Source: Thauera sp. (GTDB lineage Bacteria; Pseudomonadota; Gammaproteobacteria; Burkholderiales; Rhodocyclaceae). Taken from it: 64,000 nt of DNA. The position numbers were made by a program, and so were the translations under genes. Location: contig JAFLDS010000002.1 in NCBI GenBank assembly GCA_017302295.1, forward strand, positions 372,001 to 436,000, in the 5' to 3' direction. Below the pieces are notes generated by a model that saw only the letters and a list, made by a program, of their open reading frames with translations, did not search any database and was not told where the DNA came from. Positions 32,685-62,778 of this stretch are shown one piece after another (within the stretch, counting starts at the first letter, position 1; every line of letters starts with the position of its first letter).

Positions 32685-32747
32685 GCACTGATCGTGCCCT
32701 TCGCTTTCGCGTCAGGCGCGAACCGGCTTCAGCCGGCCCGCTTGATT

Positions 32748-32823: not shown

Positions 32824-32846
32824 TACATACTTCGACTACATTCGTT

Positions 32847-32922
<76 letters not shown>

Positions 32923-33007
32923 AACGAGTCGGCGATTATAGCTTCTGTTCAAGCTCACCGCAACACCCGGATCAACCGGCTTGCAGGGCAATCACCCTGC
33001 ATGAAAC

Positions 33008-33084
33008 TGGCGGAGTGGACGGGACTCGAACCCGCGACCCCCGGCGTGACAGGCCGGTATTCTAACCGACTGAACTACCACTCC
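33008..33084 (-). tRNA. tRNA-Asp (GTC), copy 1 in transcription order
   Basis: Same 77-base sequence as the tRNA at 32608-32684, with anticodon GTC and encoded CCA. It is the third gene of the six-gene tRNA operon. Confidence 0.97.
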
Positions 33085-33147
33085 GCACTGACCTGCACCG
33101 GCTTTCGCCGGCATCGCCTCGCAGCCATCGGCTACGACGCTTGAAAC

Positions 33148-33223
33148 TGGCGTCCCCACGGGGATTCGAACCCCGGTTATCGCCGTGAAAGGGCGGTGTC
33201 CTAGGCCTCTAGACGATGGGGAC
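33148..33223 (-). tRNA. tRNA-Glu (TTC), copy 1 in transcription order
   Basis: Same 76-base sequence as the tRNA at 32748-32823, with anticodon TTC and encoded CCA. Confidence 0.97.
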
Positions 33224-33245
33224 AGCATACTGCAATCTCTTTCTT

Positions 33246-33321
<76 letters not shown>

Positions 33322-33339
33322 GACATCGAAAGAGCGCGC

Positions 33340-39721: not shown

Positions 39722-39861
39722 AGTTCTTCCTCCTCTCCCTTTATGGGTGCTCACACGGCGGGCAACGATTGTCGCGGCAGCCCCGCCTCCTCACTACCGC
39801 AGCAGCCTGAACCGATGTTCCTGAACCGGCTTCAACTTGCAGACGCCCCCTCTGCCTGCCG

Positions 39862-46158: not shown

Positions 46159-47547
<1,389 letters not shown>

Positions 47548-47661: not shown

Positions 47662-48987
47662 TTATCCGGCCACCCTCAGCGCGAACAGCGAGATGCCCGG
47701 CACGAAGACCAGCAGCAGGATGCGCAGCAGGTCGGAGGCAAGGAAGGGCATCACGCCGCGGAACATCGTCGCCATCGGAATGTCCTTGGCGACCCCGCTG
47801 ATGATGTACACATTCATCCCCACCGGCGGCGTGATGAGGCCGATCTCCATCACCACCAGCGCCACCATGCCGAACCAGATCGCCTTCTCCTCCATTCCCA
47901 TGCCGAAATAGTCCATCCCGAGGATGATGGGCAGGAAGATCGGCACGGTGAGCAGGATCATCGACAGGCTGTCCATGATGCAGCCCAGCACCAGGTAGAT
48001 CGCGATGATCGTGAACAGCACGGTGAACGGGCCGAGCCCCAGACTCTGCACCCACTGCGCGGCCTCGGCCGGCAGCTGGCTGACCGCCATGAAGGAGTTC
48101 AGCGTGTCGGCGCCGAGCAGGATCAGGAACATCATGCCGGTGCCCTTGGCCGTGCCGAAAAGGCACTCCATCAGCCCTTCGCCCTTCAGACCGCCGGACT
48201 TCCAGGCGGTCAGCCCGGTCGCCAGCGCGCCGATGGCCGCTGCTTCGGTCGGGGTGAACAAGCCTCCATAGATGCCGCCAATGACCACCGCGAAGATCAG
48301 CATCACCGGCCACGTGTCGATCACGGTCGAGATACGCTCTGCCCAGGTGTGCTTCGGCGAACCGGGCCCGCCTGCCGCCGGGACGACACGGCAGACGATG
48401 GCGATCACCACCATGTAGCCGACCGCTGCCAGGATGCCCGGGATGAACGCGGCCAGGAAAAGCTTGGCGATGTTCTGCTCGGCGAGGATGGCGTAGATCA
48501 CCAGCGGCACCGAGGGCGGGATCAGGATGCCCAGCGTGCCGCCTGCCGCCAGCGAGCCGGTGGCCAGCGCCGGGCTGTACTGGTGGCGCTTGAGTTCGGG
48601 CAGGACCACGTGCGTCATCGTTGCCGCGGTGGCGAGCGAGGAGCCGCAGATCGCGCCGAAGCCGGCGCACGAAGCCACACCCGCCATCGCCATGCCGCCC
48701 TTCCAGTGGCCGATGAAGGCGTTGCCGGCGCGGAACAGCGCGCGCGACAGCCCGCCATGGGTGGCGAACTGGCCCATCAGCAGAAACAGCGGCACCACCG
48801 ACAAGTCGTACAGCGAGAAACGCCCGTAGGGAGCGTCCTTCAGGTAGGCGAGCAGCGGATCGAGCCCCGACACCCACACGTAGCCGATGGCGCCGGTGAG
48901 GAACATGGCGATGCCGATCTGCACCCGCAGCGCCAACATGCCCATCATCACCGCACCCATGATCATGCCGATCGTCGCGCTGCTCAT
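47662..48987 (-). CDS. TRAP transporter large permease (DctM)
   Basis: Encodes 441 residues from the ATG at 48987 (MSSATIGMIMGAVMMGML). About 12 hydrophobic segments are present. Typical DctM motifs are PLFLLMGQFATHGGLSRALF, AGGTLGILIPPSVPLVIY, FTPTEAAAIGA and MEIGLITPPVGMNVYI. It carries the sodium-driven transport channel of a C4-dicarboxylate-type system. Its start overlaps the dctQ stop (ATGA). The position beside aromatic-acid genes suggests an aromatic or carboxylic acid substrate; this is inference. Confidence 0.94.
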   Translation of the reverse strand: MSSATIGMIMGAVMMGMLALRVQIGIAMFLTGAIGYVWVSGLDPLLAYLKDAPYGRFSLYDLSVVPLFLLMGQFATHGGLSRALFRAGNAFIGHWKGGMAMAGVASCAGFGAICGSSLATAATMTHVVLPELKRHQYSPALATGSLAAGGTLGILIPPSVPLVIYAILAEQNIAKLFLAAFIPGILAAVGYMVVIAIVCRVVPAAGGPGSPKHTWAERISTVIDTWPVMLIFAVVIGGIYGGLFTPTEAAAIGALATGLTAWKSGGLKGEGLMECLFGTAKGTGMMFLILLGADTLNSFMAVSQLPAEAAQWVQSLGLGPFTVLFTIIAIYLVLGCIMDSLSMILLTVPIFLPIILGMDYFGMGMEEKAIWFGMVALVVMEIGLITPPVGMNVYIISGVAKDIPMATMFRGVMPFLASDLLRILLLVFVPGISLFALRVAG

Positions 48988-49508
48988 GGCTTCACCTCCC
49001 CACGCAGTTCCAGACTGAAGGTGTAGAGCGCGGCCACGCCCAGCAGCACGAAGGACGGCACCACCGGCACATAGCCCCACCACACCGGCAGCGAGATCAC
49101 CATTGTCGTCTCGCCGTATTCACGCATCTCCAACATGCCGTGCCAGATCCGCCACGCCAGCAGAAAGGCCGCCCCCGCCATCAGCAGCGAGGCGAGCGCA
49201 TCGAGCGCGATCTTCAGCCGGTCGGGCGCCCACAGCGTGAAGAAGTCGACGAACACGTGCCCCTTCTTGATCTGGCAGTACGGCAGGCACATCGCGATGC
49301 CCATCGCCGACAGCATCTGCACGATCTCATAGTCGCCCGGCACCGGTCTGCCCAGCGTCGCGCGCCCCACCACACTCACCACCGACATCACCGATTCGAT
49401 GCAGAACGCCAAGCCCGCCAGCACGGCCATCGCCGCGCAGGCCCATTCGATCGACCTGCCGATCGGGCCGTGAGCAACGGCGATCGGCTGGTCCAGAGCT
49501 TCCGCCAT
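48984..49508 (-). CDS. TRAP transporter small permease (DctQ)
   Basis: Encodes 174 residues with four hydrophobic segments (WACAAMAVLAGLAFCIESV, DYEIVQMLSAMGIAMCLPYC, ALASLLMAGAAFLLAWRIW and WGYVPVVPSFVLLGVAALY). GHVFVDFFTL is characteristic of DctQ. It pairs with the DctM encoded immediately downstream by an ATGA overlap and with the binding protein encoded 75 bases upstream. Confidence 0.93.
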   Translation of the reverse strand: MAEALDQPIAVAHGPIGRSIEWACAAMAVLAGLAFCIESVMSVVSVVGRATLGRPVPGDYEIVQMLSAMGIAMCLPYCQIKKGHVFVDFFTLWAPDRLKIALDALASLLMAGAAFLLAWRIWHGMLEMREYGETTMVISLPVWWGYVPVVPSFVLLGVAALYTFSLELRGEVKP

Positions 49509-49583
49509 GGAAACCTCCAGTTCAATATTGAGACGCGCCCCGCAAGGCGAAGCCCGCGGGGCGCGAGACGAAGCGCGTATCGC

Positions 49584-50609
49584 TTACTTGGAGTACTGCT
49601 TCACCAGCGCGAGGGCATCTTCGTAGAGTTTCTTGCCGTCATGGCCAGCGGCGCTGGCTTCCTTGATCCATTCGTCATCGACCTGGGCCGTGGCGGTCTT
49701 CCACTTCGCCAGTTCCTCGGCCGAAAGCTGATAGACCGTGTTGCCGCGCGAGGTCGCCGCCTCGCGGCCTGTCGCATCGGCGGCCTTGAACTGGCCCGCG
49801 ACCCAGGCGGAGGTTTCGCGGCCGCTGTTGTTGTCGATGACCTTCTTCAGGTCGTCGGGCAGGCTGTCGTACTTCTTCTGGTTCATGACGTACAGCATGG
49901 TCGCCGTCGTCATCGCCTGCTGCACACCCGACTCGGCGTGGAATTTGGTCAGTTCATGCGTTTTCGTCGCCGGAACGACCTCCCACGGGATCAAGGCCCC
50001 GTCGATCACGCCCTTTGACAGGCTTTCGGCCATCTGCGGCACCGGCATGCCGACCGGCGTGGCGCCCAGCGCGGCGAGCATCTTCGTACCCAGGCGCGAC
50101 GGCGCGCGCACTTTGACGCCCTTCAGGTCCTCCAGCGTCTTCACCTGCTTGTCACGGAAATGCAGCACGTTGGGGCCATTGACCCAGGTGGCGATCGGCT
50201 TCATGCCGGCCAGCTCCTTGGCCGAGTGCTTCTGCATGAAATCCCACAACGCGCGGGAAGAGGCCTCGTGCGTGGTGGTGACGAACGGCAGTTCGAACAC
50301 TTCGGAGGTCGGGAAGCGGCCAGGCGTGTAACCGGGCAGCGTCCATACGATGTCTGCGACACCGTCGCGCACCTGGTTCAGAAGCTGCGGCGGCGTGCCG
50401 CCGAGTTGCATCGCGGGGTAGATCTGGCACTTCAGCTTGCCCTGCGACTCGGCGGCGATCTTGTCGCACCAGGGCACGATGACCTTGGCGTGCATCGTCG
50501 ACACCGGCGGCAGAAAGTGGGCCACCTTCAGGATCGTCTCCTGCGCCATGGCAGCAGCCGGGATCATGGTAGCGGCCGCAAGGCCGACGCTCAGCATACG
50601 AATTTTCAT
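49584..50609 (-). CDS. TRAP transporter substrate-binding protein (DctP)
   Basis: Encodes 341 residues. The signal peptide (MKIRMLSVGLAAATMIPAAAMAQ) ends at an Ala-x-Ala site. The DctP core includes KVAHFLPPVSTMHAKVIVPWCDKIAAES, LKGVKVRAPSRLGTKMLAALGA (Arg that usually contacts the ligand carboxylate) and GALIPWEVVPATKTHEL. It delivers ligand in the periplasm to DctQM. The ligand is likely a carboxylate, given the conserved Arg. Confidence 0.93.
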   Translation of the reverse strand: MKIRMLSVGLAAATMIPAAAMAQETILKVAHFLPPVSTMHAKVIVPWCDKIAAESQGKLKCQIYPAMQLGGTPPQLLNQVRDGVADIVWTLPGYTPGRFPTSEVFELPFVTTTHEASSRALWDFMQKHSAKELAGMKPIATWVNGPNVLHFRDKQVKTLEDLKGVKVRAPSRLGTKMLAALGATPVGMPVPQMAESLSKGVIDGALIPWEVVPATKTHELTKFHAESGVQQAMTTATMLYVMNQKKYDSLPDDLKKVIDNNSGRETSAWVAGQFKAADATGREAATSRGNTVYQLSAEELAKWKTATAQVDDEWIKEASAAGHDGKKLYEDALALVKQYSK

Positions 50610-50704: not shown

Positions 50705-50849
50705 CTGCTGCGCATTATTGCGTCAAACGTGGGACGCTGACCGCGGGGAGAACGGGATCGAGCGATCCCTCTTCGCCCTCGGTGCGGAGTACGCCACACC
50801 GCGAGTCACAAAACGAGACTCGACCGGGTGAGCCGTCACGCGCTGCTGC

Positions 50850-51704
50850 TCAGCCCTGCAGCTGCCCGAGCGTCTGCGTGGTGGCCAGCGCCATCACGAC
50901 GTTGCCGCTGCCCGAGGACTGCGCGTACTCGCCGTACTGCCGGCCCGCCAGCGCCCCCTGCTCGGCCGCCATCGCCTTGGCCACCCCCAGCATCGTCGCC
51001 AGCGGCCGCCCGCCCATCTCCGCGCCGACGAACTTGCTGTACTCGGCGATCCCCGCCACCGCCTCGTCGATCTGCCCCGCCTTCAGCTGCCCGATGAAGC
51101 GCTGGTCCGCCTCGATGCGCTCGGGCAGCGGCCAGTTCTCGCGCCCGCGCACCAGCACGTGGCTGAGCGCCGAACTGGTCACGAACACCGCACGCCGTCC
51201 AAGCTTCTTCGCCGTCGCATGCACGATTTCACCCGCGCGCACGCATTCCTCATGCGTCGACATCAGCACCGAAGGCAGCACCACCACCGGCACGTCACCG
51301 GTCGGGTCGAGGTACTGCAGCGGCACGAAGGTGCCGTAGTCCCACTCGAAGTACTCCGAGTCGTTGCGGTTGGACGGCACGCCGCCCGCCTTGAACGCCT
51401 CGACCAGCGCCCCGGCGAATTCGGGGTCGCCCGGGTAGTCGTAGGGGCGGCCCGGAATCAGCTGCGGCGCCTCGTCGGCGACGCAATGGCCAACGTGCCG
51501 CGGCTGGCAGGTCACCGGCCAGTCGAAGGTCGCCACCCAGTGGCTGGAGACGATCACCCACAGGTCGGGCTTGAGCTGCCGGCGAATCGCTTCGCCCATC
51601 TCGCGCTCGGCCGCCACCAGCGTCTGCTGGTAGTCGGGCGTGTTCTTCGCCAGCCCCAGCGTGGGCACATGCGCCGCGATCGTCGCGGCAATCACTCCAC
51701 TCAT
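50850..51704 (-). CDS. Class III (LigB-type) extradiol ring-cleavage dioxygenase, copy 1
   Basis: Encodes 284 residues. Iron-ligand candidates are His12 (AAHVPTLG) and His55 (IVSSHW), with a Glu in FVGAEMGGRP near residue 229. EWDYGTFVPLQYL and SSALSHVLVRG (catalytic-site His) resemble HpaD/AmnB-type enzymes more than LigB of protocatechuate 4,5-cleavage. It is predicted to open an ortho-diphenol ring next to a hydroxyl with Fe(II) and oxygen; the exact substrate is unknown. It follows the CMD-like gene by 24 bases. It is identical to copy 2 except for the last 10 or so residues (here ATTQTLGQLQG). Confidence 0.88.
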   Translation of the reverse strand: MSGVIAATIAAHVPTLGLAKNTPDYQQTLVAAEREMGEAIRRQLKPDLWVIVSSHWVATFDWPVTCQPRHVGHCVADEAPQLIPGRPYDYPGDPEFAGALVEAFKAGGVPSNRNDSEYFEWDYGTFVPLQYLDPTGDVPVVVLPSVLMSTHEECVRAGEIVHATAKKLGRRAVFVTSSALSHVLVRGRENWPLPERIEADQRFIGQLKAGQIDEAVAGIAEYSKFVGAEMGGRPLATMLGVAKAMAAEQGALAGRQYGEYAQSSGSGNVVMALATTQTLGQLQG

Positions 51705-52201
51705 CGTCGTTTCCCCTCAGTTAACAGCTCAGTTAACACTATTCGCGCCCGCTTTCGCGGTCGCTTCTTCATCGGCCTCGCGCTTGGCGATGTTGGCCAG
51801 AATCTCCGCGCCCCGGTTGGCCGCCGACAGGCCGCGGAACAGGAAGGCCAGACCGATCGTCGCCTGCAGTTCTTCCCAGGTGGCGCCGGCGCGGCGCGCC
51901 GCGATCGCGTGCAGCGGCGCGGCGTCGTTGAGGTCCATCATCAGCATGCCGAACAGCATCAGCTGCGAGGTCTTCACGTCGAAGCACTTCGGATACATCG
52001 CGTGCGCGCGCATCTGCTCCTGCAGCTCGAGCAGCTTCGGGTCGAGCGCGCCCGTCACGTTGATGCGCGCCTCGATGCGCGGCGGCACGAAGCCGATCAG
52101 CTCCTTGTAGATCGCAAAACGCTCGTCCTGCGTGTAGTCCTGCTCGGCGTAGGCGCCGATGCGTTCGCGGACCAGATCGATATTGACGCGGGGGGGAATC
52201 A
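50883..52201. repeat. Direct repeat, left copy, of the dioxygenase/CMD module
   Basis: About 1319 bases matching 55545-56863 at a constant offset of 4662. Four single-base differences were noticed by eye, all in the CMD-like gene. The similarity begins about 11 codons before the dioxygenase stop and ends one base from the CMD-like start codon. Confidence 0.93.
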
Positions 52202-52202
52202 T
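51729..52202 (-). CDS. Carboxymuconolactone-decarboxylase-like protein, copy 1
   Basis: Encodes 157 residues from the ATG at 52202 (MIPPRVNIDLVRERIGAY). The CMD fold is suggested by GFVPPRIEARI, LDPKLLELQEQM, FDVKTSQLMLFGMLMMDLND, and LHAIAARRAGATWEELQATIGLAFLFRG. The position where AhpD-type members have CxxC reads NDAAPLH, so peroxidase activity is unlikely. It always precedes the extradiol dioxygenase here, which suggests a partner subunit or a next-step enzyme. The intergenic 24 bases contain a repeated GTTAACTGAG. Confidence 0.82.
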   Translation of the reverse strand: MIPPRVNIDLVRERIGAYAEQDYTQDERFAIYKELIGFVPPRIEARINVTGALDPKLLELQEQMRAHAMYPKCFDVKTSQLMLFGMLMMDLNDAAPLHAIAARRAGATWEELQATIGLAFLFRGLSAANRGAEILANIAKREADEEATAKAGANSVN

Positions 52203-52244
52203 TGGAGTCTCCTTGGAAATCGGACCGATGGCCAAAGTACCACT

Positions 52245-52258
52245 TGACCATACGGTCA
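52245..52258. promoter_or_regulatory. Palindromic operator candidate upstream of CMD copy 1
   Basis: TGACC-ATAC-GGTCA, a perfect 5-4-5 inverted repeat, 43 bases upstream of the CMD-like start. It is not present upstream of copy 2. Confidence 0.45.
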
Positions 52259-52277
52259 TTGTCGAGCTTGCGATCGC

Positions 52278-52309
52278 CACCGGGGCCTGGCCGCATGCCG
52301 GCCCCGGTG
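52278..52309. terminator. GC-rich hairpin between the MobA-like gene and the first module
   Basis: CACCGGGGCC pairs perfectly with GGCCCCGGTG; the inner GGC/GCC can extend the stem. It lies 70 bases after the MobA-like stop on the minus strand. No T tract is seen. Confidence 0.45.
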
Positions 52310-52378
52310 CGATGTTCGATTGCAGCGCATCTCTATCGAACGCATGAAGCGTTTCGATCATCCTGCGCTGACATCGAA

Positions 52379-54289
52379 TTACCGGAGAATTCCAGCAAAG
52401 AACGACGACAGGTCGGCGAAGCCATCCAGCGGCAGGACGTGCGCAACGTACTGGTCGGGACGAACCACCACCATGCAGCCCCTGTCGCGGTCGATGCCGC
52501 GCATGTCGAAAATGTCGCCAGCACCCTTGTGATCGACGCAGAAGACCTTCTCGAAGTCGATCAGGCCGAGCTTTCCGGTCTTCGGCTTCAGCAAGGACGG
52601 CAGGTTCTCGTAGGCGAGCTGATCGAAGGTTTGCTGGAACACCGCGCGGAAGTCGATCACCGCGTCGATGTCTTCGCCCTCGCGGGTGTGCTTGACGACG
52701 GGCGAGCTGGGGTTGGTTTCCAGCCAGTCCGCGAGCTTGTGGATCGCCGAACCGGCGTTCGAGCTGTCCGCCTTGCCAGCGAACGCATAGATGCGCCAGC
52801 GTGCATCTGCCTCGGCGGCATGGCCGAGTTGCATCTGCTTGGCGTCCGACACACGGACCACCGGCGCCGAGTGGAAGCGACGGCCAATCTCCAGCTTGCT
52901 CGCAAGCGCCTGGTGAGTCCCGGCACCAGTCAGTCGGGACGGGTCATATTTCACTGCATTACCGCCGGTGAACTCGAGGTTCTCCTTGAACGTGCGAATG
53001 ATGCGCGGCTCTTCGGTTCCATTGCGTTCGGCTTCGGTGGTCGGCGCCGACATGACCCGGGCCCACTTGTGATCGGTCTCCACCAGACGCTTCGCCTCGG
53101 TCAGACGCTCCTTGGAGTAGGTTCGCAGCAGGCTTGCATCGGCGCGCCCCTGGAGGACGTGCACAAGCTTCCAGCCCAGGTTGAAGGTGTCCTGCATCGA
53201 CACGTTCATCCCCTGACCCGCCTTGGGCGAGTGCGTGTGGCATGCGTCGCCCGCCGTGAAGACGCGAGGATCGCGGTCTTCGCCTTCGGGGACGTCATCG
53301 AATCGGTCGGTGATGCTGTGTCCGATATCGTAGATGGACCACCACACCACCTCCTTCACGTCGATCGTGTAGGGCTTGATGATGCGGTTCGCCGCGGCAA
53401 TCATGTCGTCCTGGGTGAACTTGCGCTCCGCCGCTTTCTCGTCCGGCCTGAGCTTGTCGAGCTCGACATACATGCGGAAGATGTAGCCGCCCTCGCGCGG
53501 GAGGATCAGCACATTGCCCTCCTTGGCGGAGGAGATCAGGCACTTCTGCCGGACGTCCGGGAAATCCGTGTTGGCGAGGATGTCCATCACACCCCAGGCT
53601 TGATGCGCGGCATCGCCGTGCAGTTGGCCACCAATCGATGTGCGCACGGCCGAACGCGCACCATCGCATCCGACGACGTAATTGGCCCGGACGGTTCGGG
53701 TTGCCCACCAGTACACACCGGTTACGTCCTTCAACGTCACGGTGACCGGATGGTCGTCGGTCGTGGGATCGACCGTCACATTCACGACTTCCCAACCGTA
53801 GTCGGGTTCGAGTCGCGAGGGCGAGTTTTTCATGATCTCCAGGAACAGCTCATGCATTCGTGCCTGGTTGATCAGGATATGCGGCATTTCCGAGCTGTCA
53901 TCGGCCACGTCCTGCACCCGACCGACGCGCTTGATGTGCTCGGGATTCTTGGGATCGGGCATCCAGAACGCGGTCTGATTGACCCAGTAGGTTTCGCGCT
54001 TGACCTTGTCGGCGAATCCGAAGGCCTGGAACATTTCCATGGTGCGCGTGTTGATGCCGTCGGCCTTGCCCTTGATGATGTTGCTGGGCATGCGCTCGAT
54101 GATCATCGTGTCGATCTCGGGGAACTGCGACAACTGGGCGGCAAGACACAGGCCGGCAGGTCCGGTGCCGGCAATCAGCACATCCACCTTCTCGGGCAAG
54201 GGTTCGTTGATCCCGCGGTTGCGACGGTTCGGTGCCGCCGGCTTGATGTCGGGGTTGCCACCTCTGAATCCATTTTTATAGAACTGCAT
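52379..54289 (-). CDS. MobA-like FAD monooxygenase, probably 3-hydroxybenzoate 4-monooxygenase
   Basis: Encodes 636 residues. FAD motifs are VDVLIAGTGPAGLCLAAQL, VVGCDGARSAVR and VFTAGDACHTHSPKAGQGMN; a C-terminal thioredoxin-like domain ends in VVVRPDQYVAHVLPL. The opening (MQFYKNGFRGGNPDI), ADGINTRTMEMFQAFGFAD and NSPSRLEP strongly recall Comamonas MobA, which converts 3-hydroxybenzoate to protocatechuate. Phenol 2-monooxygenase is a related alternative. It is divergent from a LysR gene with a likely operator between them. Confidence 0.85.
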   Translation of the reverse strand: MQFYKNGFRGGNPDIKPAAPNRRNRGINEPLPEKVDVLIAGTGPAGLCLAAQLSQFPEIDTMIIERMPSNIIKGKADGINTRTMEMFQAFGFADKVKRETYWVNQTAFWMPDPKNPEHIKRVGRVQDVADDSSEMPHILINQARMHELFLEIMKNSPSRLEPDYGWEVVNVTVDPTTDDHPVTVTLKDVTGVYWWATRTVRANYVVGCDGARSAVRTSIGGQLHGDAAHQAWGVMDILANTDFPDVRQKCLISSAKEGNVLILPREGGYIFRMYVELDKLRPDEKAAERKFTQDDMIAAANRIIKPYTIDVKEVVWWSIYDIGHSITDRFDDVPEGEDRDPRVFTAGDACHTHSPKAGQGMNVSMQDTFNLGWKLVHVLQGRADASLLRTYSKERLTEAKRLVETDHKWARVMSAPTTEAERNGTEEPRIIRTFKENLEFTGGNAVKYDPSRLTGAGTHQALASKLEIGRRFHSAPVVRVSDAKQMQLGHAAEADARWRIYAFAGKADSSNAGSAIHKLADWLETNPSSPVVKHTREGEDIDAVIDFRAVFQQTFDQLAYENLPSLLKPKTGKLGLIDFEKVFCVDHKGAGDIFDMRGIDRDRGCMVVVRPDQYVAHVLPLDGFADLSSFFAGILR

Positions 54290-54417
54290 GTCCTTACCTC
54301 CTCAGTGCTGCCCCGACCGGATGGTCCGAGCATGGTCTCGAATGGCGAATGCGTGAAAGAAATCCTGTGCGCACTTTAGTCCCGCCCCCCTTATCCAGCA
54401 ACGCAATGAGTAGAATA

Positions 54418-54444
54418 GGTTCAATTCAAATAAGGAATAGAACC
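54418..54444. promoter_or_regulatory. LysR-type operator candidate between the MobA-like and lysR genes
   Basis: GGTTCAATTC, 7 bases, GAATAGAACC: an inverted repeat matching at 9 of 10 positions, with an internal TTC-N9-GAA (T-N11-A) core. It ends 5 bases before the lysR ATG and fits autoregulation plus control of the divergent monooxygenase. Confidence 0.6.
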
Positions 54445-54449
54445 CCTTC

Positions 54450-55373
54450 ATGCAGAACCTCGACACCCGCTTGCTCCAGGTCTTCGACGAGATCTACAAG
54501 ACACGCAGCGTCAGCCGCGCGGCGGAGCAGCTCGGGCTGGGCCAGCCGGTGGTGAGCATCGCGCTGGGAAAGTTGCGCCAGCACTTCGGCGACCCCCTTT
54601 TCGTGCGCACTTCGACAGGCATGGATCCGACGCCGCTGGGAGAGGAACTTGTGCGGCCGATCCGGAATGCGATCGACGCCTTGGAGGCGGCCCTGGGTTA
54701 CCGCACGACCTTCGACCCCGGTTCGGTGCGGCGGACCTTCAACATCGCGATGACGGACATCTCGCAGATCGTCCTGCTGCCCCGCTTGTGGGCCAGGCTG
54801 CACGCGGTGGCGCCGGGGGTGTCGGTGGAGGTGGCGAACCTGTCGGCGGAGACCGCACGTCTGTTGGAGGCCGGCGAGATGGACCTCGCTCTCGGCTTCA
54901 TCCCGCAGCTCGATGCGGGCTTCTATCAGCAGACGCTGTTCGCACAGCGCTACATCTGCCTCGCGAGAACGGATCACCCGCGCATTCAGGGCGAAATGAG
55001 CCTGGAGCAGTTCCAGGCGGAAGAGCATGCCGCGGTGATCAGCCCGGGCACCGGCCATGGCTATCTGGACCGCGAGCTCGCGCGGCAGAACATCACGCGC
55101 AAGGTCGTTCTGCGGGTTCCGAACTTTCTCGGCGTCGCCCTCGTTGTCGAGCACACCGACCTGGTGGTCACGATCCCGGCGCGGCTCGGCAAGATGATGG
55201 AACGACATGGCCGTTTCCAGATTTACCCGACACCGTTCTCCATTGCAGGCTACCAGATCAAGCAGTTCTGGCACGAGCGCTTTCATCACGACCCTGGAAA
55301 CTGCTGGCTACGCAAGCTGATCCGCGAGTTGCTCGGCGCCCCTTCGAGCGCCGGCGCTGACGGCAAGGCTTGA
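54450..55373 (+). CDS. LysR-family regulator (NahR/NagR-like)
   Basis: Encodes 307 residues. The helix-turn-helix is LDTRLLQVFDEIYKTRSVSRAAEQLGLGQPVVSIALGKLRQHFGDPLFVR. The effector domain follows (TDISQIVLLPRLWARLHAVAPGVSVEVANL), which resembles the NahR/NagR/DntR branch that senses salicylate-like aromatics. Divergent placement suggests it activates the MobA-like gene. The effector may be a hydroxybenzoate; this is inferred. Confidence 0.9.
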   Translation: MQNLDTRLLQVFDEIYKTRSVSRAAEQLGLGQPVVSIALGKLRQHFGDPLFVRTSTGMDPTPLGEELVRPIRNAIDALEAALGYRTTFDPGSVRRTFNIAMTDISQIVLLPRLWARLHAVAPGVSVEVANLSAETARLLEAGEMDLALGFIPQLDAGFYQQTLFAQRYICLARTDHPRIQGEMSLEQFQAEEHAAVISPGTGHGYLDRELARQNITRKVVLRVPNFLGVALVVEHTDLVVTIPARLGKMMERHGRFQIYPTPFSIAGYQIKQFWHERFHHDPGNCWLRKLIRELLGAPSSAGADGKA

Positions 55374-55455
55374 ACCGGCGTCGCCGGCCCGGGTGGCGAC
55401 GCGGGCCGCGCCTGTGCAGCGACGCGATGCCCGAGCACGCGCTGTAAGCGAACCA

Positions 55456-55489
55456 TGGATCCGACCGGAGCAGGCACCGGTCGAATCCA
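55456..55489. terminator. Hairpin between convergent lysR and dioxygenase copy 2
   Basis: TGGATCCGACCGG, 8-base loop, CCGGTCGAATCCA: 12 of 13 paired. It lies between the lysR stop and the second dioxygenase stop, and could act in both directions. No T tract is seen. Confidence 0.5.
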
Positions 55490-55511
55490 CGTTGTCGCGC
55501 GTCGTCCGGCC

Positions 55512-56366
55512 TCAGCCGGCCAGTTGCGCCAGCGTGCCGTGAGCGGCCAGCGCCATCACGACGTTGCCGCTGCCCGAGGACTGCGCGTACTCGCCGTACT
55601 GCCGGCCCGCCAGCGCCCCCTGCTCGGCCGCCATCGCCTTGGCCACCCCCAGCATCGTCGCCAGCGGCCGCCCGCCCATCTCCGCGCCGACGAACTTGCT
55701 GTACTCGGCGATCCCCGCCACCGCCTCGTCGATCTGCCCCGCCTTCAGCTGCCCGATGAAGCGCTGGTCCGCCTCGATGCGCTCGGGCAGCGGCCAGTTC
55801 TCGCGCCCGCGCACCAGCACGTGGCTGAGCGCCGAACTGGTCACGAACACCGCACGCCGTCCAAGCTTCTTCGCCGTCGCATGCACGATTTCACCCGCGC
55901 GCACGCATTCCTCATGCGTCGACATCAGCACCGAAGGCAGCACCACCACCGGCACGTCACCGGTCGGGTCGAGGTACTGCAGCGGCACGAAGGTGCCGTA
56001 GTCCCACTCGAAGTACTCCGAGTCGTTGCGGTTGGACGGCACGCCGCCCGCCTTGAACGCCTCGACCAGCGCCCCGGCGAATTCGGGGTCGCCCGGGTAG
56101 TCGTAGGGGCGGCCCGGAATCAGCTGCGGCGCCTCGTCGGCGACGCAATGGCCAACGTGCCGCGGCTGGCAGGTCACCGGCCAGTCGAAGGTCGCCACCC
56201 AGTGGCTGGAGACGATCACCCACAGGTCGGGCTTGAGCTGCCGGCGAATCGCTTCGCCCATCTCGCGCTCGGCCGCCACCAGCGTCTGCTGGTAGTCGGG
56301 CGTGTTCTTCGCCAGCCCCAGCGTGGGCACATGCGCCGCGATCGTCGCGGCAATCACTCCACTCAT
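55512..56366 (-). CDS. Class III (LigB-type) extradiol ring-cleavage dioxygenase, copy 2
   Basis: Encodes 284 residues, identical to copy 1 through VVMALA; the C-terminus then reads AHGTLAQLAG. Thus His12, His55 and the Glu near 229 are all kept. The near-identity implies recent duplication or gene conversion. It is transcribed from a different upstream region, after the second CMD-like gene. Substrate is as uncertain as for copy 1. Confidence 0.88.
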   Translation of the reverse strand: MSGVIAATIAAHVPTLGLAKNTPDYQQTLVAAEREMGEAIRRQLKPDLWVIVSSHWVATFDWPVTCQPRHVGHCVADEAPQLIPGRPYDYPGDPEFAGALVEAFKAGGVPSNRNDSEYFEWDYGTFVPLQYLDPTGDVPVVVLPSVLMSTHEECVRAGEIVHATAKKLGRRAVFVTSSALSHVLVRGRENWPLPERIEADQRFIGQLKAGQIDEAVAGIAEYSKFVGAEMGGRPLATMLGVAKAMAAEQGALAGRQYGEYAQSSGSGNVVMALAAHGTLAQLAG

Positions 56367-56863
56367 CGTCGTTTCCCCTCAGTTAACAGCTCAGTTAACA
56401 CTATTCGCGCCCGCTTTCGCGGTCGCTTCTTCATCGGCCTCGCGCTTGGCGATGTTGGCCAGAATCTCCGCGCCCCGGTTGGCCGCCGACAGGCCGCGGA
56501 ACAGGAAGGCCAGACCGATCGTCGCCTGCAGTTCTTCCCAGGTGGCGCCGGCGCGGCGCGCCGCGATCGCGTGCAGCGGCGCGGCGTCGTTGAGGTCCAT
56601 CATCAGCATGCCGAACAGCATCAGCTGCGAGGTCTTCACGTCGAAGCACTTCGGGTACATCGCGTGCGCGCGCATCTGCTCCTGCAGCTCGAGCAGCTTC
56701 GGGTCGAGCGCGCCGGTGACGTTGATGCGCGCCTCGATGCGCGGCGGCACGAAGCCGATCAGCTCCTTGTAGATCGCAAAACGCTCGTCCTGCGTGTGGT
56801 CCTGCTCGGCGTAGGCGCCGATGCGTTCGCGGACCAGATCGATATTGACGCGGGGGGGAATCA
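55545..56863. repeat. Direct repeat, right copy, of the dioxygenase/CMD module
   Basis: Matches 50883-52201 with about four base differences seen. The outer sequences on both sides are unrelated between copies. Confidence 0.93.
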
Positions 56864-56864
56864 A
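56391..56864 (-). CDS. Carboxymuconolactone-decarboxylase-like protein, copy 2
   Basis: Encodes 157 residues from a TTG at 56864 (LIPPRVNIDLVRERI), with AGGAG 8 bases upstream. The equivalent codon in copy 1 is ATG. One residue difference was noticed: His in EQDHTQDE where copy 1 has Tyr. The AhpD-type CxxC is again missing. It lies back to back with the VOC dioxygenase gene, with about 300 bases between the starts. Confidence 0.82.
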   Translation of the reverse strand: MIPPRVNIDLVRERIGAYAEQDHTQDERFAIYKELIGFVPPRIEARINVTGALDPKLLELQEQMRAHAMYPKCFDVKTSQLMLFGMLMMDLNDAAPLHAIAARRAGATWEELQATIGLAFLFRGLSAANRGAEILANIAKREADEEATAKAGANSVN

Positions 56865-56950: not shown

Positions 56951-56967
56951 CGTGCGCAGAGCGCACG
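56951..56967. promoter_or_regulatory. Palindrome CGTGCGC-N3-GCGCACG between CMD copy 2 and the VOC dioxygenase
   Basis: A perfect 7-3-7 inverted repeat, 87 bases upstream of the second CMD-like gene and about 195 bases upstream of the VOC gene. The same GTGCGC-N3-GCGCAC core occurs at 59210-59224 in the iclR-dctP gap, so a shared regulator is likely. Confidence 0.55.
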
Positions 56968-57162: not shown

Positions 57163-58170
57163 ATGAGCACATACAAGGAACCCCTGCTCGACGTGGCCCA
57201 CCTCGGCCGACTCGAACTGCTGACCCCCAAGCCCGAGCAGAGCCTGTGGTACTTCCGTGACCTGCTCGGCATGGAAGTGGTGGCCACCGAAGGCGATTCG
57301 GTCTACATGCGCGCCTACGGCGACTATGCGCACTCGACCTTCAAGCTGACCGCCGCCAGCCAGCCCGGCCCGGGCACCATCTCGTGGCGCTGCATGAGCC
57401 CGCAGGCGCTGGAGCGCCGCGTGAAGGCAATCGAAGCCGCCGGTCTGGGCATCGGCTGGAAAGACGGTGACGTCGGCCGCGGCAGGTTCTACCAGTTCCG
57501 CGATCCCGATGGTCACCAGATGGACATCTACTTCGAGGAGCAGAAATACCGCGCCCCCGATGCGCTGCGCTCGACGCTGAAGAACCTGCCGCAGCGCTAC
57601 ACCGCGCGCGGCGCCAACGTGCGCCGCATCGACCACCTCGCGCTGTGCGCGCAGGATGTGGCGAAGAACCGCGAATTCGCCATGGATCTGCTCGGCTTCC
57701 GCGTGCGCGAGCAGGTCGTCTACAACCAGGGCCGGACCGAGATCGGCTCCTGGATGAGCCTGGGCCAGATCCACCACGAGATGGCCTATGTGCTGGACGT
57801 GAAGGGCGCGCACGGGCGCATGCACCACATGTCGTTCTGGATCGACAATCGCGAGGACGTGCTGCGCGCGGCCGACATCCTCGCCGAGAACAACATCTTC
57901 ATCGAGGCCGGCCCGTCCAAGCACAACAACTCGCAGGCTTTCTACCTGTACTCGTACGAGCCGGGCGGCAACCGTATCGAGATCTACTCGGGCAGCTTCA
58001 TCGTCACCGCGCCGGACTTCGAGACGGTGACCTGGAACGAGGAGGAACGCGGCACCGGCGTGTATTGGGGCGGTGCGCTGCCGCCAAGCTTCCTGAACTA
58101 CTGCACGCCGAACGTGGATGTGCCGGTGCCGGAAGAGAACGCGAACGTGCCGGTGTTCGATCCCGTCTGA
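57163..58170 (+). CDS. VOC-type (class I) extradiol dioxygenase, catechol 2,3-dioxygenase-like
   Basis: Encodes 335 residues from the ATG at 57163, with AAGGAG 8 bases upstream. There are two VOC modules: LGRLELLTPKPEQSLWYFRDLLG at the N-terminus and IDHLALCAQDVAKNREFAMDLLGF in the C-terminal half. Iron ligands are likely His in RRIDHLAL, His in RMHHMSFW and Glu in NRIEIYSG. It cleaves a catechol-type ring next to the diol; substrate is unresolved. It is unrelated in fold to the class III enzymes encoded beside it. It is convergent with iclR. Confidence 0.88.
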   Translation: MSTYKEPLLDVAHLGRLELLTPKPEQSLWYFRDLLGMEVVATEGDSVYMRAYGDYAHSTFKLTAASQPGPGTISWRCMSPQALERRVKAIEAAGLGIGWKDGDVGRGRFYQFRDPDGHQMDIYFEEQKYRAPDALRSTLKNLPQRYTARGANVRRIDHLALCAQDVAKNREFAMDLLGFRVREQVVYNQGRTEIGSWMSLGQIHHEMAYVLDVKGAHGRMHHMSFWIDNREDVLRAADILAENNIFIEAGPSKHNNSQAFYLYSYEPGGNRIEIYSGSFIVTAPDFETVTWNEEERGTGVYWGGALPPSFLNYCTPNVDVPVPEENANVPVFDPV

Positions 58171-58269: not shown

Positions 58270-59175
58270 TCAGGCGCGAGTGGCCGCCTTTTCGCTCGCC
58301 TTCTCGCCCAGCTTCTTCGCCGCCTCGCGCAGCGGCTCCAGGAAGCGGTTGCGCATCTGCGTCGCGTTGGTACGAACGCTGTTGGCCAGCACATTGACGC
58401 CGCTCACCACCGCCCCGGACGGATCGCAAACCGGCACGGCGATCGAGCTTAGCCCCACCTCCATCTGCTGGTTGGCAATCGCGTAACCGTCGTTCCGGAT
58501 GCCCTCTAGCGCCGCCCTCAAGCCGCTGGCGCTGACGATCGTGTTCGCGGTGAAGGGAAGAAAGGTCGCGTGCGCCAGATAGGCTTCCAGTTCCGCCTCC
58601 GGCAGATGGGCCAGCAGCACCTGCCCGATCGACGTCGCGTACGCCGGGAGCCGGTTTCCCACATTGAGCGAGGGCGACATGATGCGCGACGACGTCGCCC
58701 GCGCCAGATAGACGATCTCGTTGCCGTCGAGCACCGCCATCGAGCACGCCTCGCCGACGGTTTCGCTCAGTTCGTCGAGCACCGCCTGGGCGTAGCCGCC
58801 GAGTGGCGAGCCCGACAGATAGGCGTTGCCCAGCGACACCGCCTTCGGCGCCAGTGAAAAGCGCGTGCCGTCCTGGCAGCGCACGAAGCCGAGCACGGTG
58901 AGCGTGTGCAGATAGCGCCGCACCGCCGCGCGGGTGATCCCCGTGCGGTAGCTGATCTGCGAGATCGTCAGTTGCCGCCCCTGGTTGGTAAACGCCTGGA
59001 TCACCGCCAGGCCGCGCGCGAGCGCGGTGACGAAATCGCGGTCGTCCTTGTGGCGAGCGGAGCGCTCGGCATCGTCCTCATCGGCCACACCGTCATGAAG
59101 CCCGGGAGCGCCTGGCGTGCCCTGCTCGTCTTCATCCGGCAGTGCCGACCCCATCCGTGATCGATCCGTATGCAT
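58270..59175 (-). CDS. IclR-family regulator (PcaR/PobR-type)
   Basis: Encodes 301 residues from the ATG at 59175 (MHTDRSRMGSALPDEDEQ); ATG at 59154 is an alternative. The winged helix is FVTALARGLAVIQAFTNQGRQLTISQISYRTGITRAAVRRYLHTL. The effector domain follows (GEACSMAVLDGNEIVYLARA...SIGQVLLAHL). It resembles PcaR/PcaU/CatR-like IclR regulators of protocatechuate or related catabolism. Palindromes in the gap to the TRAP gene suggest autoregulation. Confidence 0.9.
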   Translation of the reverse strand: MHTDRSRMGSALPDEDEQGTPGAPGLHDGVADEDDAERSARHKDDRDFVTALARGLAVIQAFTNQGRQLTISQISYRTGITRAAVRRYLHTLTVLGFVRCQDGTRFSLAPKAVSLGNAYLSGSPLGGYAQAVLDELSETVGEACSMAVLDGNEIVYLARATSSRIMSPSLNVGNRLPAYATSIGQVLLAHLPEAELEAYLAHATFLPFTANTIVSASGLRAALEGIRNDGYAIANQQMEVGLSSIAVPVCDPSGAVVSGVNVLANSVRTNATQMRNRFLEPLREAAKKLGEKASEKAATRA

Positions 59176-59209: not shown

Positions 59210-59224
59210 GTGCGCACGGCGCAC
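59210..59224. promoter_or_regulatory. Palindrome GTGCGC-N3-GCGCAC upstream of iclR
   Basis: A perfect 6-3-6 inverted repeat 35 bases upstream of the iclR start, sharing its core with 56951-56967. It is a candidate IclR-family operator. Confidence 0.5.
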
Positions 59225-59415: not shown

Positions 59416-60405
59416 ATGAACACATCCAGCACATCCAGCCTCAAGAGCGCCGCCGGATTCAAGTTCGGCAAACTGTTCGCCGGCATGGTCGGCGCCCTTT
59501 CACTGTCGCTGCTCGCGAGTTCGGCGCAGGCCGAGATCCGCGCGCACAACTTCAAGGTCGCCATCGCAGTCAGTGCCGGCGCGGCGCACTACGACGGCGG
59601 CGTAAAGTTCTGCGAGCTGCTGGAGAAGAAGAGCGGCGGCAAGATGAAGGCGAAGATGTTCGGCGGCGGCGCGCTCGGCAAGGACACCGCGGTGGTGTCG
59701 TCGATGCAGGGCGGCGTGATCGACATGGGCATCATGAACGCCAACCTGCTCACCGGCCTGGTCAAGGACTTCGGCGTGCTGGACTTCCCCTTCGTGTTCG
59801 AAAGCGAGAAGGTCGCCTACAAGGTACTGGACGGCGCCTGGGGCCAGAAGCTGAGCAACAAGCTGCTCGACAAGGGCATCGTCGGACTCGGTTACTGGGA
59901 AATGGGCTATTTGAACTATCACACCGGTACCAAGCCGATCAACAAGCTCGAGGACATCGCCGGGCTGAAGATCCGCGTCACCGAGACGCCGCTGCAGATC
60001 GATTTCCAGAAAGCGCTCGGCGCCAACCCGCTGCCCATCCCCTACGTCGAGCTCTATACCGCGCTCGAGCAGCGCACGGTCGACGGCGGCAACCAGACCT
60101 TCATCAACGTCCAGGTCGCGAAGTTGTTCGAAGTGCAGAAGTACATGACGGTGACCAACCACATGTACAACCCGCAGATGTTGCTGATGAGCAAGAAGGT
60201 GTACGACAAGCTCAACGACGACGAGAAGAAGGTGCTCAACGAGGCCGCCATCGAGGCGCGTGACCACCAACGCATGCTGTCGCAGCAATACACCGCGAAG
60301 GCGATGGAGTTCCTGAAGGACAAGATCACCATCAGCGTGCGTATTCCGATCGTTCGTGACCGGTCAGTCCAGTTCGACGTGATCACCAGTTCCGATTCGT
60401 ACTGA
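59416..60405 (+). pseudogene. TRAP substrate-binding protein (DctP), 3' end replaced by IS sequence
   Basis: The ATG at 59416 has AAGGAG 8 bases upstream. The signal peptide (LFAGMVGALSLSLLASSAQA) and most of the DctP core are intact, including GGALGKDTAVVSSMQGGVIDMG and LKIRVTETPLQIDFQKALGANP. After MEFLKDKITISV, near 60340, the sequence RIPIVRDRSVQFDVITSSDSY does not fit the family and runs into the IS21-type element. The intact part is about 310 of an expected 330-340 residues, so the protein may be unstable or altered at its C-terminus. No dctQ or dctM follows. Confidence 0.8.
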
Positions 60406-60487
60406 TCAGTCGTCCCGGTGCTCGTGAGCACCAGGACGGCACCGTGACCGCTAAGCTGACGTCACGCTCATCGTTCCAGCGACATGA

Positions 60488-61240
60488 TCACGCGGGGGGC
60501 ATCTTCCGCTTTGCCTGAAGCTTGCGCATGGATTCACCCTTGAGCGTAATCCGGTGCGCCTGATGCACCACGCGGTCAAGGATTGCGTCTGCCAAGGTCG
60601 GATCGGGGAAGAACCCATGCCACTGGTCTGTTGGGAACTGGCTTGTGATCAGCAAGGATCCGGTACGCATCCGCCGATCCACCACATCCAGCAACACCTG
60701 CGCAGCTTGCGAAGAAATCTCGCTCAGACCGAAGTCGTCGATGATAAGCAAACTCGGTTTAATCAGACCGGCCTTGAGCTTAGGCAACGAACCGTCATGG
60801 CTGGCAACTGCGATCTCTTGATAAAGATCGCTCGCCCGGAAGAACGTAGCGGGTAAACGCTGTCGGCAAGCCTGAGAACCGAAGGCACATGCAAGCCATG
60901 TCTTTCCGACCCCCGTTGCGCCAAGGACGATCAAGTTAAGCTGCTGTCGAATCCATTCGCAACTGGCCAGCGAGGCGATGAACCCTTTGTCGATATCTCG
61001 CGAAGCTCGGTAATCGGCGTCTTCGAGCGATGCGGATTCAGGGAATCCTGCACTCCGCACGAGCCGCTTCAATTTCTTCGAGTCACGTTCAGAGGCTTCA
61101 TGCTCGACAAGCAACCCGAATCGGTCATCGAAAGAGAGTTGGTGAAGCTTCGGCTGCTGCAACTGGACCGAATACGCTTCGGCCATCGACGTCAATCGCA
61201 ATTCACGTAGGCGGGAGATGGTTTGATGGACGCCGCTCAT
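60488..61240 (-). CDS. istB: IS21 helper ATPase IstB
   Basis: Encodes 250 residues from the ATG at 61240 (MSGVHQTISRLRELRLTSMAEAY). AAA+ features are Walker A LGATGVGKTWLA and Walker B LLIIDDFGLS; VDRRMRTGSLLITSQFP is sensor-like. It assists the IstA transposase in target capture. It overlaps istA by 4 bases. Confidence 0.95.
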   Translation of the reverse strand: MSGVHQTISRLRELRLTSMAEAYSVQLQQPKLHQLSFDDRFGLLVEHEASERDSKKLKRLVRSAGFPESASLEDADYRASRDIDKGFIASLASCEWIRQQLNLIVLGATGVGKTWLACAFGSQACRQRLPATFFRASDLYQEIAVASHDGSLPKLKAGLIKPSLLIIDDFGLSEISSQAAQVLLDVVDRRMRTGSLLITSQFPTDQWHGFFPDPTLADAILDRVVHQAHRITLKGESMRKLQAKRKMPPA

Positions 61241-62778
61241 GTGTTTTCTCCAAAGTAGCTCGCACCCCGCACATTGTCGTGGGCTGGCCTCGGCGCCGTG
61301 CCGCTGACAGAGTGGGCGCGTTTGTCGGGTGCCTGCTTGAGAATGGAATCGAGGCTGCGCAATGCCGTAATGTTGAGCGATAGCGCATATGCACACGCCT
61401 CTTCGAAGCGTTGGTCGCCGTGGATACGAGCCAGATCGCGCATCCGCCGGGCTGCTTTCAGACCATTGACGGCATCGGATCGGTTTTCCAGGTGATGGCG
61501 AATCATTGCCGCCGAGCCTTCCCCTACCGACTCGGCCCATAGCATGAGTGCCCTCGGTTCGCCCTCAAGCACGCGGACATGCGCTATCGGACGATGCTCA
61601 GGCAACGTCTGGACTGTGCCTTCGCATTGTGCCAATGCGTGCAAGGCAACGCGCTGGCCGCGATGCATGACCTCGAGCATCGATCCGGTGTAACGCAGAT
61701 CGACACGCTGTCCGCGCAACTCCGACGGCACGGAGTAGAAGCTCCGCGCATGTTCGACATGGTAATCGTCGCCAGCCCGCACCCCATATCGCCAATCGCA
61801 TAACTCGAAGGGAATGGGCGGCAGGCGCTTCAAAGTCGAACGCTCGGTTTTCTCAAATCGTTCGATGCGGGAGCCTGACATCTTCTTGAAGGGATGAGCG
61901 TTCAGCGTTACCACGAGCCTCCTGAGGGCGTCATTCAGTTCATCGAGGCTAAAGAATGTTCGGTCGCGAAGTGCGAACAACACCCAACGCTGTGCGATCT
62001 GCACACCGACCTCGGCCTTCGCCTTGTCTTTCGCCTTCCTGACACGAGCTGGTAGTGCAGCGGTGTTGTAGTGCTGCAGGCACTCCCGGTAGGCCGGGTT
62101 GATAACGACGCGATCCTTCTCACGCCGCCAGACAGCCGCCTTCAGGTTGTCCGGCACAACCCAGGCCGGCACGCCCCCCATTGCCGCAAAGCAATCGACA
62201 TGGCATCTCACCCAATCAGGGGTTTTCTGCGAGGCGACTGCCTGCAGGTAGGTCAGGTTCGAGTAGCCAAGCACGGCAACGAAGATTTGCGCATAGATCG
62301 AGGGACCGCCGCTTCGATCCCTGATCTCGACTGTACGGCCGGCGAAATCGACGAACAACTTCTCACCCGGGCGATGGGCCTGACGCATCACGATATGTTG
62401 TCGCTTCGCCCACGCCCGGTAACCGGCAGTGAATTGCGAGTAGGCGATTCCCTCCGGGCACTGACTGCGCCACTCCCGCCACAGCTGCTCGAGTGTGGCG
62501 TCGGGGCGCTGCATCTCGGCGTGCACCCAATCCCAATCTGGCGCTCTCTTGCGTTGCGCGATGCTCTTGTTGCCAGCACCCAGAACCGCGTACCAGGCGT
62601 CGTCATCCAATGAATGAAGATCGGCACCAAAGGTGTCGCTTTTTCTGAGAATTCGGCGCATTTCGCGCACGGTGTTTGCGGAAACACCAACTGACCGTGC
62701 GATGGCTCGGTTGGACTGTGAGGTATCGTAGAAGTGCAAACGCGCGATCTCGCGCTGTAGGTGGATAGGCAGACGCAA
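61237..62778 (-). CDS. istA: IS21 transposase IstA
   Basis: Encodes 513 residues from a TTG at 62778 (LPIHLQREIARLHFYDTSQSN follows Met-Arg), with GAGGAG upstream. An N-terminal helix-turn-helix is QSNRAIARSVGVSANTVREM. The DDE residues are visible as Asp in KLFVDFAGRTVEI, Asp in WVVPDNLKAAV and Glu in INPAYRECLQHY. No frameshift was seen, so the transposase may be active. Confidence 0.95.
   Translation of the reverse strand: MRLPIHLQREIARLHFYDTSQSNRAIARSVGVSANTVREMRRILRKSDTFGADLHSLDDDAWYAVLGAGNKSIAQRKRAPDWDWVHAEMQRPDATLEQLWREWRSQCPEGIAYSQFTAGYRAWAKRQHIVMRQAHRPGEKLFVDFAGRTVEIRDRSGGPSIYAQIFVAVLGYSNLTYLQAVASQKTPDWVRCHVDCFAAMGGVPAWVVPDNLKAAVWRREKDRVVINPAYRECLQHYNTAALPARVRKAKDKAKAEVGVQIAQRWVLFALRDRTFFSLDELNDALRRLVVTLNAHPFKKMSGSRIERFEKTERSTLKRLPPIPFELCDWRYGVRAGDDYHVEHARSFYSVPSELRGQRVDLRYTGSMLEVMHRGQRVALHALAQCEGTVQTLPEHRPIAHVRVLEGEPRALMLWAESVGEGSAAMIRHHLENRSDAVNGLKAARRMRDLARIHGDQRFEEACAYALSLNITALRSLDSILKQAPDKRAHSVSGTAPRPAHDNVRGASYFGENT

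Follow-up and report, generated by a model that had tools for sequence, protein, structure and literature searches.

How does a bacterial genome come to hold the same pair of ring-cleavage genes twice, almost letter for letter, in two different genetic surroundings? The question is raised by a stretch of 64,000 nucleotides (the window) from Thauera sp. (assembly GCA_017302295.1, contig JAFLDS010000002.1, positions 372,001–436,000 of the forward strand), part of a draft genome of 4.11 Mb in 53 contigs. Each pair consists of ligB, which encodes a class III extradiol dioxygenase, and cmd, which encodes a CMD-like protein. The best joint explanation, to which we give an even chance, is that two diverged pairs were recently made alike by gene conversion, that they serve the 2,3-cleavage of protocatechuate followed by decarboxylation by the CMD-like protein, and that each is under separate control.

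Two near-identical copies of one gene pair

The two copies are arranged as follows (positions are those of the window).
50850–51704, minus strand: ligB1, class III extradiol dioxygenase copy 1 (PF02900, E value 6.5e-22); its last 33 nucleotides (50850–50882) are diverged from copy 2
51729–52202, minus strand: cmd1, CMD-like, ATG at 52202 (PF02627, 22.5 bits, cut-off 23)
50883–52201: near-identical block, copy 1 (1315/1319 positions equal to copy 2)
55512–56366, minus strand: ligB2, class III extradiol dioxygenase copy 2 (PF02900, E value 5.5e-22); its last 33 nucleotides are diverged from copy 1
56391–56864, minus strand: cmd2, CMD-like, TTG at 56864 (PF02627, just under the cut-off)
55545–56863: near-identical block, copy 2 (compared in register)

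BLASTN of the window against itself returned a single long repeat, in direct orientation, that pairs 50849–52201 with 55511–56863 at a spacing of exactly 4662 nucleotides. Within it, the gap-free block has exactly four mismatches in 1319 positions, at 51993, 52053, 52056 and 52136 (copy 2 at +4662). All four fall within the first 209 nucleotides of cmd, a clustering with p = 0.0006 under random placement, computed post hoc; three are silent and one is coding (Tyr23/His23). The 822 nucleotides of ligB that belong to the block are the same in both copies (0/822 differ). Both ligB genes have 284 codons, and the LigB1 and LigB2 proteins differ at five residues, every one of them in the last ten. 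The gap between cmd and ligB is 24 nucleotides, and the two CMD start codons differ in their first base only. The first-pass annotation had described a pair present twice, 4662 bases apart in direct orientation, matching over about 1319 bases with about four differences, with identity ending at the CMD start codon and about 11 codons before the dioxygenase stop, and with ATG and TTG starts and two different palindromes upstream; all of this is borne out, the block stopping 33 nucleotides short of the end of ligB. A search of the whole genome at the DNA level yielded no third copy of the unit, its only other match being 33 bases long, and no further LigB paralog was found in the genome, where one other protein match came up, of 23% identity over part of LigB.

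Ends of the block

A recent origin of the similarity is supported because no ligB position out of 822 differs between the copies, compared with 74–75/822 from the two nearest relatives. What kind of event produced it is best read from the ends of the block. In the last 33 nucleotides of ligB, 14 positions differ between the copies, while frame, length and stop are in common, and 22/36 nucleotides are alike when one shared codon and the stop are counted. The likeness of the tails (16/30 nucleotides) compares with 8.6 ± 2.5 for random 30-mers of the window and is reached by 0.5% of 200,000 draws. By these sequence measures the two tails are diverged homologs, and unrelated DNA at the 3' junction, which we had considered, is ruled out by this homology of same frame, same length, same stop and above-chance likeness. 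Diverged homologous DNA thus flanks the block on its 3' side; on the 5' side, where no clear diverged homologous DNA is seen, the block stops where coding homology stops. Beyond the ligB stops and before the CMD starts the DNA is unrelated between the copies, as the earlier description of the upstream DNA had it, except for an AGGAGAC ribosome-site motif common to both copies upstream (by eye).

Neighbouring genes and relatives

The genes around and between the two copies are the following.
46357–47547, plus strand: pobA-like 4-hydroxybenzoate 3-monooxygenase gene (NF006091, 605 bits, cut-off 351; TIGR02360, 521.5 bits, cut-off 538.7)
47662–50609, minus strand: TRAP genes downstream of ligB1, namely dctP (49584–50609), dctQ (48984–49508) and dctM (47662–48987) (PF03480, PF04290, PF06808)
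52379–54289, minus strand: mobA-like 3-hydroxybenzoate 4-hydroxylase gene (2dkh, E value 8.4e-222, full length)
54450–55373, plus strand: lysR-type regulator gene, divergent from mobA (PF03466, PF00126; orthologs beside mobA in two relatives)
57163–58170, plus strand: VOC (class I) extradiol dioxygenase gene, ATG at 57163 (TIGR03211, 309 bits, cut-off 320.2)
58270–59175, minus strand: iclR, regulator gene of the PcaR/PcaU/PobR type (TIGR02431, 280.5 bits, cut-off 284.75; start taken as the ATG at 59175)

The mobA-like and lysR genes were thus found between the copies, where they had been placed, and it is reasonable that recombination between the direct repeats could delete this middle segment.

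The survey of relatives covered 28 other Thauera genomes and 394 other genomes drawn from the family (G and L numbers are our handles for genomes and loci). The dioxygenase is present in 6/29 Thauera genomes, twice in the window genome, as one whole copy in four and as a fragment in G021, and in 8/395 family genomes at an E value of 1e-60, two copies being found in the window genome only. Thirteen loci outside the window with a whole ligB were compared; the G021 ligB (100 residues, at a contig end) was left out, and G013, G006 and G024, which are the same as L017, L018 and L019, were each counted once. In nine of the 13, cmd adjoins ligB (G013, G006, G001, G024, G090, G084, G116, L020, L021). 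Relatives of ligB lie near pobA in G013, G006, G001, G024, L020 and L021, and near mobA in G013 and G006. The gene order is araC, pobA, lysR, mobA-cmd-ligB in the metagenome-assembled genome KAN-75 and in Thauera sp. 2A1, and araC, pobA-cmd-ligB in G001, T. phenylacetica B4P and L021. In G090, cmd-ligB is followed by dctP and dctM, as in the window, and is divergent from genes for a semialdehyde dehydrogenase, a hydrolase, a hydratase, an acetaldehyde dehydrogenase and an aldolase. Among 48 matching plasmid records, none holds a LigB of at least 60% identity.

Comparison with KAN-75 and 2A1 separates the two copies. The upstream DNA of copy 1 (the mobA-cmd spacer) and mobA itself are orthologous to those of both relatives, and the upstream DNA of copy 2 is not. 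The block core and mobA are similarly alike to these relatives (about 0.9), the ligB core being about 91% alike, better than either tail: the tail of copy 1 matches theirs at 20/33 positions and that of copy 2 at 23/33, with KAN-75 and 2A1 equal to each other at 33/33. The cmd1 protein is 98% identical to the mobA-linked protein in two relatives.

Conversion or duplication

The first-pass annotation had left the choice between recent duplication and gene conversion open; recency stands, and the diverged homologous tails favour conversion between existing paralogs over a fresh duplication, as an interpretation that they do not prove. What makes it the better fit is that each end of the block is located at, or within, coding sequence that is homologous, and that the tails are related but diverged. 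On this interpretation, two diverged cmd-ligB pairs would have been resident in one Thauera genome beforehand, and a recent non-reciprocal recombination would have equalised 1.3 kb, the mobA-linked sequence being the likely source of the core, while the upstream DNA and the last dioxygenase codons of each pair would have stayed as they were. Two observations weigh against it. The tail of copy 1, which comprises only 33 nucleotides, is unlike that of the mobA-linked relatives (20/33), so that copy 1 must be supposed to have undergone a further, earlier exchange, possibly with an operon of the order cmd-ligB-TRAP, as found in G090 and the window; and no relative with two diverged copies was found among the 28 other Thauera and 394 other family genomes, in which carriers are few (5 and 7, respectively).

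A fresh duplication is a serious rival, possible if doubtful in our estimation: cmd-ligB would have been copied once into the VOC locus, and one ligB tail later replaced or rewritten during a rearrangement beside the TRAP or lysR genes. The near-zero divergence between the copies agrees with this, as do the single copy in each of the 5/28 other Thauera genomes with a match (one a fragment) and the VOC-iclR-dctP order of G016, where no ligB match was found; moreover, the place of copy 2 appears rearranged, because in L012 and L013 it is pobA, not ligB, that comes after lysR. A random copy, however, would hardly be expected to have one boundary precisely at an initiation codon preceded by a usable ribosome site and the other within homologous last codons; both tails share length, frame and residues. 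That a single real copy was doubled by the assembly is very improbable; the draft state of the genome, in 53 contigs, speaks for such an artefact, but four distinct junctions on one contig (TRAP to tail 1, mobA to ATG, lysR to tail 2 and VOC to TTG) require two copies, on the sole alternative path the middle segment would, by argument, become a circle of its own, and the junction of copy 1 with mobA matches two relatives.

Gene conversion of resident pairs would be an event of a kind already known in principle. In Acinetobacter, the near-identical duplicate catabolic genes catIJF and pcaIJF are kept alike by gene conversion. As with the window pairs, catabolic genes are duplicated there, have near-identical cores and belong to two regulatory units; the genes and the pathway are different, and the Thauera case was seen in a single genome, so that it does not speak for repeated conversion. 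Among the literature matches listed, the titles and abstract openings contained neither a CMD–LigB pair nor a conversion of such genes.

Predicted reaction of the pair

LigB fits a class III extradiol dioxygenase of the LigB superfamily by its PF02900 match and by fold. Its structure model has a predicted local distance difference test score (pLDDT) of 84.5, and Foldseek gave TM scores of 0.84–0.85 to 7txy and 8iq8. The nearest folds are 2-aminophenol 1,6-dioxygenase and 3,4-dihydroxyphenylacetate 2,3-dioxygenase. An alignment of 12 proteins shows H12, H55, H182 and E229 without variation, and these residues also align with 8iq8; we take them to be the metal-ligand and catalytic residues (two histidines, one glutamate and a second-sphere histidine). 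The structure alignments A5 and A6 hold the window proteins and those of related loci, with G001 left out and one row of A5 beginning at codon 2. The LigAB protocatechuate 4,5-dioxygenase is of the same LigB fold superfamily (1bou_B, TM score 0.75) but is farther from the model: the window LigB is nearer to aminophenol and homoprotocatechuate dioxygenases in both fold and sequence, and by Pfam the gene that accompanies it is of the CMD and not of the LigA type.

The surrounding genes suggest the substrate. The best solved structure for the MobA-like protein is that of a 3-hydroxybenzoate hydroxylase, and PobA passes the NF006091 cut-off and lies just under that of TIGR02360, so that two enzymes predicted to make protocatechuate from 3- and 4-hydroxybenzoate, respectively, are encoded nearby. 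No match to PcaH was found in the genome by a search that was positive in 4/14 controls; no match to LigA (PF07746) was found either, by a search positive in 0/14 controls and hence uninformative. Another contig (C10) carries genes for a 2-hydroxymuconic semialdehyde dehydrogenase (TIGR03216, 846 bits) and a 4-oxalocrotonate decarboxylase (TIGR03218, 466 bits), both over the cut-off. The cmd-ligB pair thus probably opens the ring of protocatechuate, a compound that commonly arises when plant aromatics are degraded, in the 2,3 manner and decarboxylates the product: LigB would cleave the ring next to the hydroxyls, the CMD-like protein would decarboxylate the ring-opened product to 2-hydroxymuconic semialdehyde, and the catechol meta pathway on the other contig would finish the latter. 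Both the substrate and the decarboxylation are predictions from gene content and homology.

A comparable route is the pra pathway of Paenibacillus sp. JJ-1b, in which PraA opens protocatechuate to 5-carboxy-2-hydroxymuconate semialdehyde, a product monitored at 350 nm (PMC13254512), and PraH decarboxylates it (PMC12455638, PMC13254512, PMC6362003). The Thauera genome resembles it in having the genes of the 2-hydroxymuconic semialdehyde pathway (on C10), and the window LigB is 36% identical to the dioxygenase of a pra-like Priestia plasmid, the nearest available stand-in for PraA. It differs in that the position expected for a PraH-type gene is taken by a CMD-like one and in that the pair lies near pobA and mobA-like genes, in two copies, with the later genes on another contig. 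Against a protocatechuate 2,3-cleavage route counts that C10 also carries a catechol 2,3-dioxygenase gene, so that the later pathway there may serve just catechol.

Decarboxylase or subunit

We tentatively entertain, as a possible reading, that the CMD-family protein is an undescribed decarboxylase that replaces PraH behind both LigB dioxygenases (in proteobacteria) and VOC dioxygenases (in Thermus), and that conversion delivered the pair to the VOC/IclR unit. The loci without cmd bear on this. Four of the 13 whole-ligB loci lack it (L022, L023, L024 and the Priestia plasmid L028), and all four have an Amidohydro_2-type gene nearby, three by Pfam and that of L023 by an 88% match about 6 kb away, whereas none of the nine cmd-ligB loci does in the 9–21 kb fetched for each; nor is a PraH-type amidohydrolase linked to the dioxygenase in the window. 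OpaD is 30% identical to the 2-amino-3-carboxymuconate-6-semialdehyde (ACMS) decarboxylase NbaD and 28% identical to PraH, which carries out this decarboxylation in Paenibacillus (PMC6362003).

Pairing of a CMD homolog with another kind of dioxygenase is found on a Thermus thermophilus plasmid. Of the nine plasmid records with a CMD match, three were inspected (L061, L062, L063). On pAA229 (L061, 6944–8335), a CMD homolog, 69% identical over 113 amino acids, lies directly before a VOC dioxygenase gene, divergent from iclR and from genes annotated as aldolase, acetaldehyde dehydrogenase, tautomerase and aldehyde dehydrogenase. The window thus shares with pAA229 a CMD homolog, a VOC dioxygenase, iclR and genes with semialdehyde-pathway annotations, and differs in that pAA229 has one unit and gave no match to LigB, nor to an amidohydrolase, in the 14.3 kb fetched. 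The window VOC protein is 46.5% identical to that of pAA229 and 27% to the catechol 2,3-dioxygenase of its own genome. In L062 the match is a fragment of 101 residues next to genes for a transposase and an alpha/beta hydrolase, and L063 is a record without listed genes; neither is informative on pairing. For comparison, the OpaD, NbaD and PraH proteins are amidohydrolases.

The alternative that the CMD-like protein is an accessory or second LigB subunit, as LigA is, or that the pair acts on another catechol acid, appears unlikely to us. The tight linkage with a short gap between cmd and ligB does resemble ligA-ligB, the CMD score sits at the Pfam cut-off (22.5 and 22.6 bits for the window copies against 23, with 26.0, 23.5 and 30.2 for relatives), and a 44% identical amidohydrolase is encoded elsewhere in the genome. 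LigB relatives of 62–65% identity nevertheless lack cmd nearby (L022–L024), and in Thermus the partner of the 69% identical homolog is an unrelated dioxygenase, of the VOC type; such a swap across folds would be unexpected of a subunit. An obligate LigB subunit is therefore the less likely role, since the partner changes, and CMD more likely acts on the product, because the pathway is kept while the dioxygenase partner changes. Other findings weaken the assignment of CMD as the decarboxylase: its structure model is poor (pLDDT 57.9) and unfit for a fold search; the 44% identical amidohydrolase of the window genome (G000:C34:53170-54156, L064; compared with the ligB-linked gene of L024) has counterparts of 44% elsewhere in G013 and G006 and weaker ones in G001 and G084, none of the L024 type being found in G024, G090 and G116 at an E value of 1e-10. 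Because of these amidohydrolases encoded elsewhere, CMD is not the sole candidate decarboxylase, and the alternation of cmd and amidohydrolase genes is weaker genome-wide than in the loci themselves.

Regulation of the two copies

The products of the two copies differ at five of the last ten residues of LigB and at residue 23 of CMD, the start codon aside; these differences are so small that expression, not chemistry, likely distinguishes the copies. The sites considered in this respect are listed below.
52245–52258: palindrome TGACCATACGGTCA, TGACC-N4-GGTCA, in the mobA-cmd1 spacer; not conserved in two orthologous loci
56952–56966: putative IclR operator GTGCGCAGAGCGCAC, GTGCGC-N3-GCGCAC, between cmd2 and the VOC gene
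59210–59224: another exact copy of the operator-like palindrome, 34 bp upstream of the iclR start, with counterparts in L029 and L030
59275–59289: third operator-like site, one mismatch, in the iclR/dctP2 spacer; identical sequence in L029 at 2412

Copy 2 probably belongs to an IclR unit, to judge by the recurrence of sites, and would be controlled by the neighbouring IclR protein, probably together with the divergent VOC dioxygenase gene. The same palindrome, a putative operator, is common to the upstream regions of iclR and of copy 2. Within one mismatch of GTGCGCN3GCGCAC there are three sites in the window, and they occur only in the cmd2/VOC and iclR/dctP2 spacers, which make up 0.9% of it (site p-values were computed post hoc). 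The iclR-side sites recur before iclR in G016 (L029) and G021 (L030). The comparison covers that side, since the contig of G016 begins about 180 bp upstream of VOC and that of G021 breaks off within the gene. Exact operator-like matches also elsewhere in L029 (9607) and L030 (3207, 9312) tell against such an operator role.

Copy 1, which follows mobA after a 176-nucleotide spacer, is more likely part of a mobA-cmd-ligB cluster with the TRAP genes following, and would be expressed with mobA on the LysR side. Its palindrome is rejected as a conserved operator, as no site within one mismatch of TGACCN4GGTCA is present in the orthologous loci L012 and L013. The earlier proposal of two regulators is thus supported at the sequence level for copy 2 and loses the copy 1 palindrome as its support. 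A scan for sigma-70 promoters and terminators gave counts near chance (one promoter-like site against 0.9 expected, and four terminator-like sites against 3.8). The expression of both copies is proposed here on the basis of gene order and motifs.

The mobA-cmd1 spacer also holds a GC-rich inverted repeat (52278–52309, CACCGGGGCC...GGCCCCGGTG), with a counterpart in L012 (by eye). Beside the iclR-side sites, the dctP2 protein departs from that of G016 (L029, 2555–3610) after codon 308 (nucleotide 60339), and this solute-binding protein looks truncated; an IS21-type element (istB/istA, 60340–62778) comes after dctP2. Elsewhere in the window, two adjacent acetoacetyl-CoA reductase-like genes (38013–38753 and 38981–39754), near a phaR repressor gene, are about 72% identical over 509 nucleotides, and a direct repeat of 320 nucleotides (32608–32925 and 33008–33324) is 89% identical.

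Implications

If the proposed history and function are right, this locus would be a natural case in which gene conversion has put one enzyme pair under the control of two regulators, with the 33-nucleotide ligB tails marking which copy is which. One ring-cleavage step in this genome would then have two enzyme folds as well as two regulators, and Thauera would gain a protocatechuate 2,3-cleavage route that uses another decarboxylase family than that of Paenibacillus.

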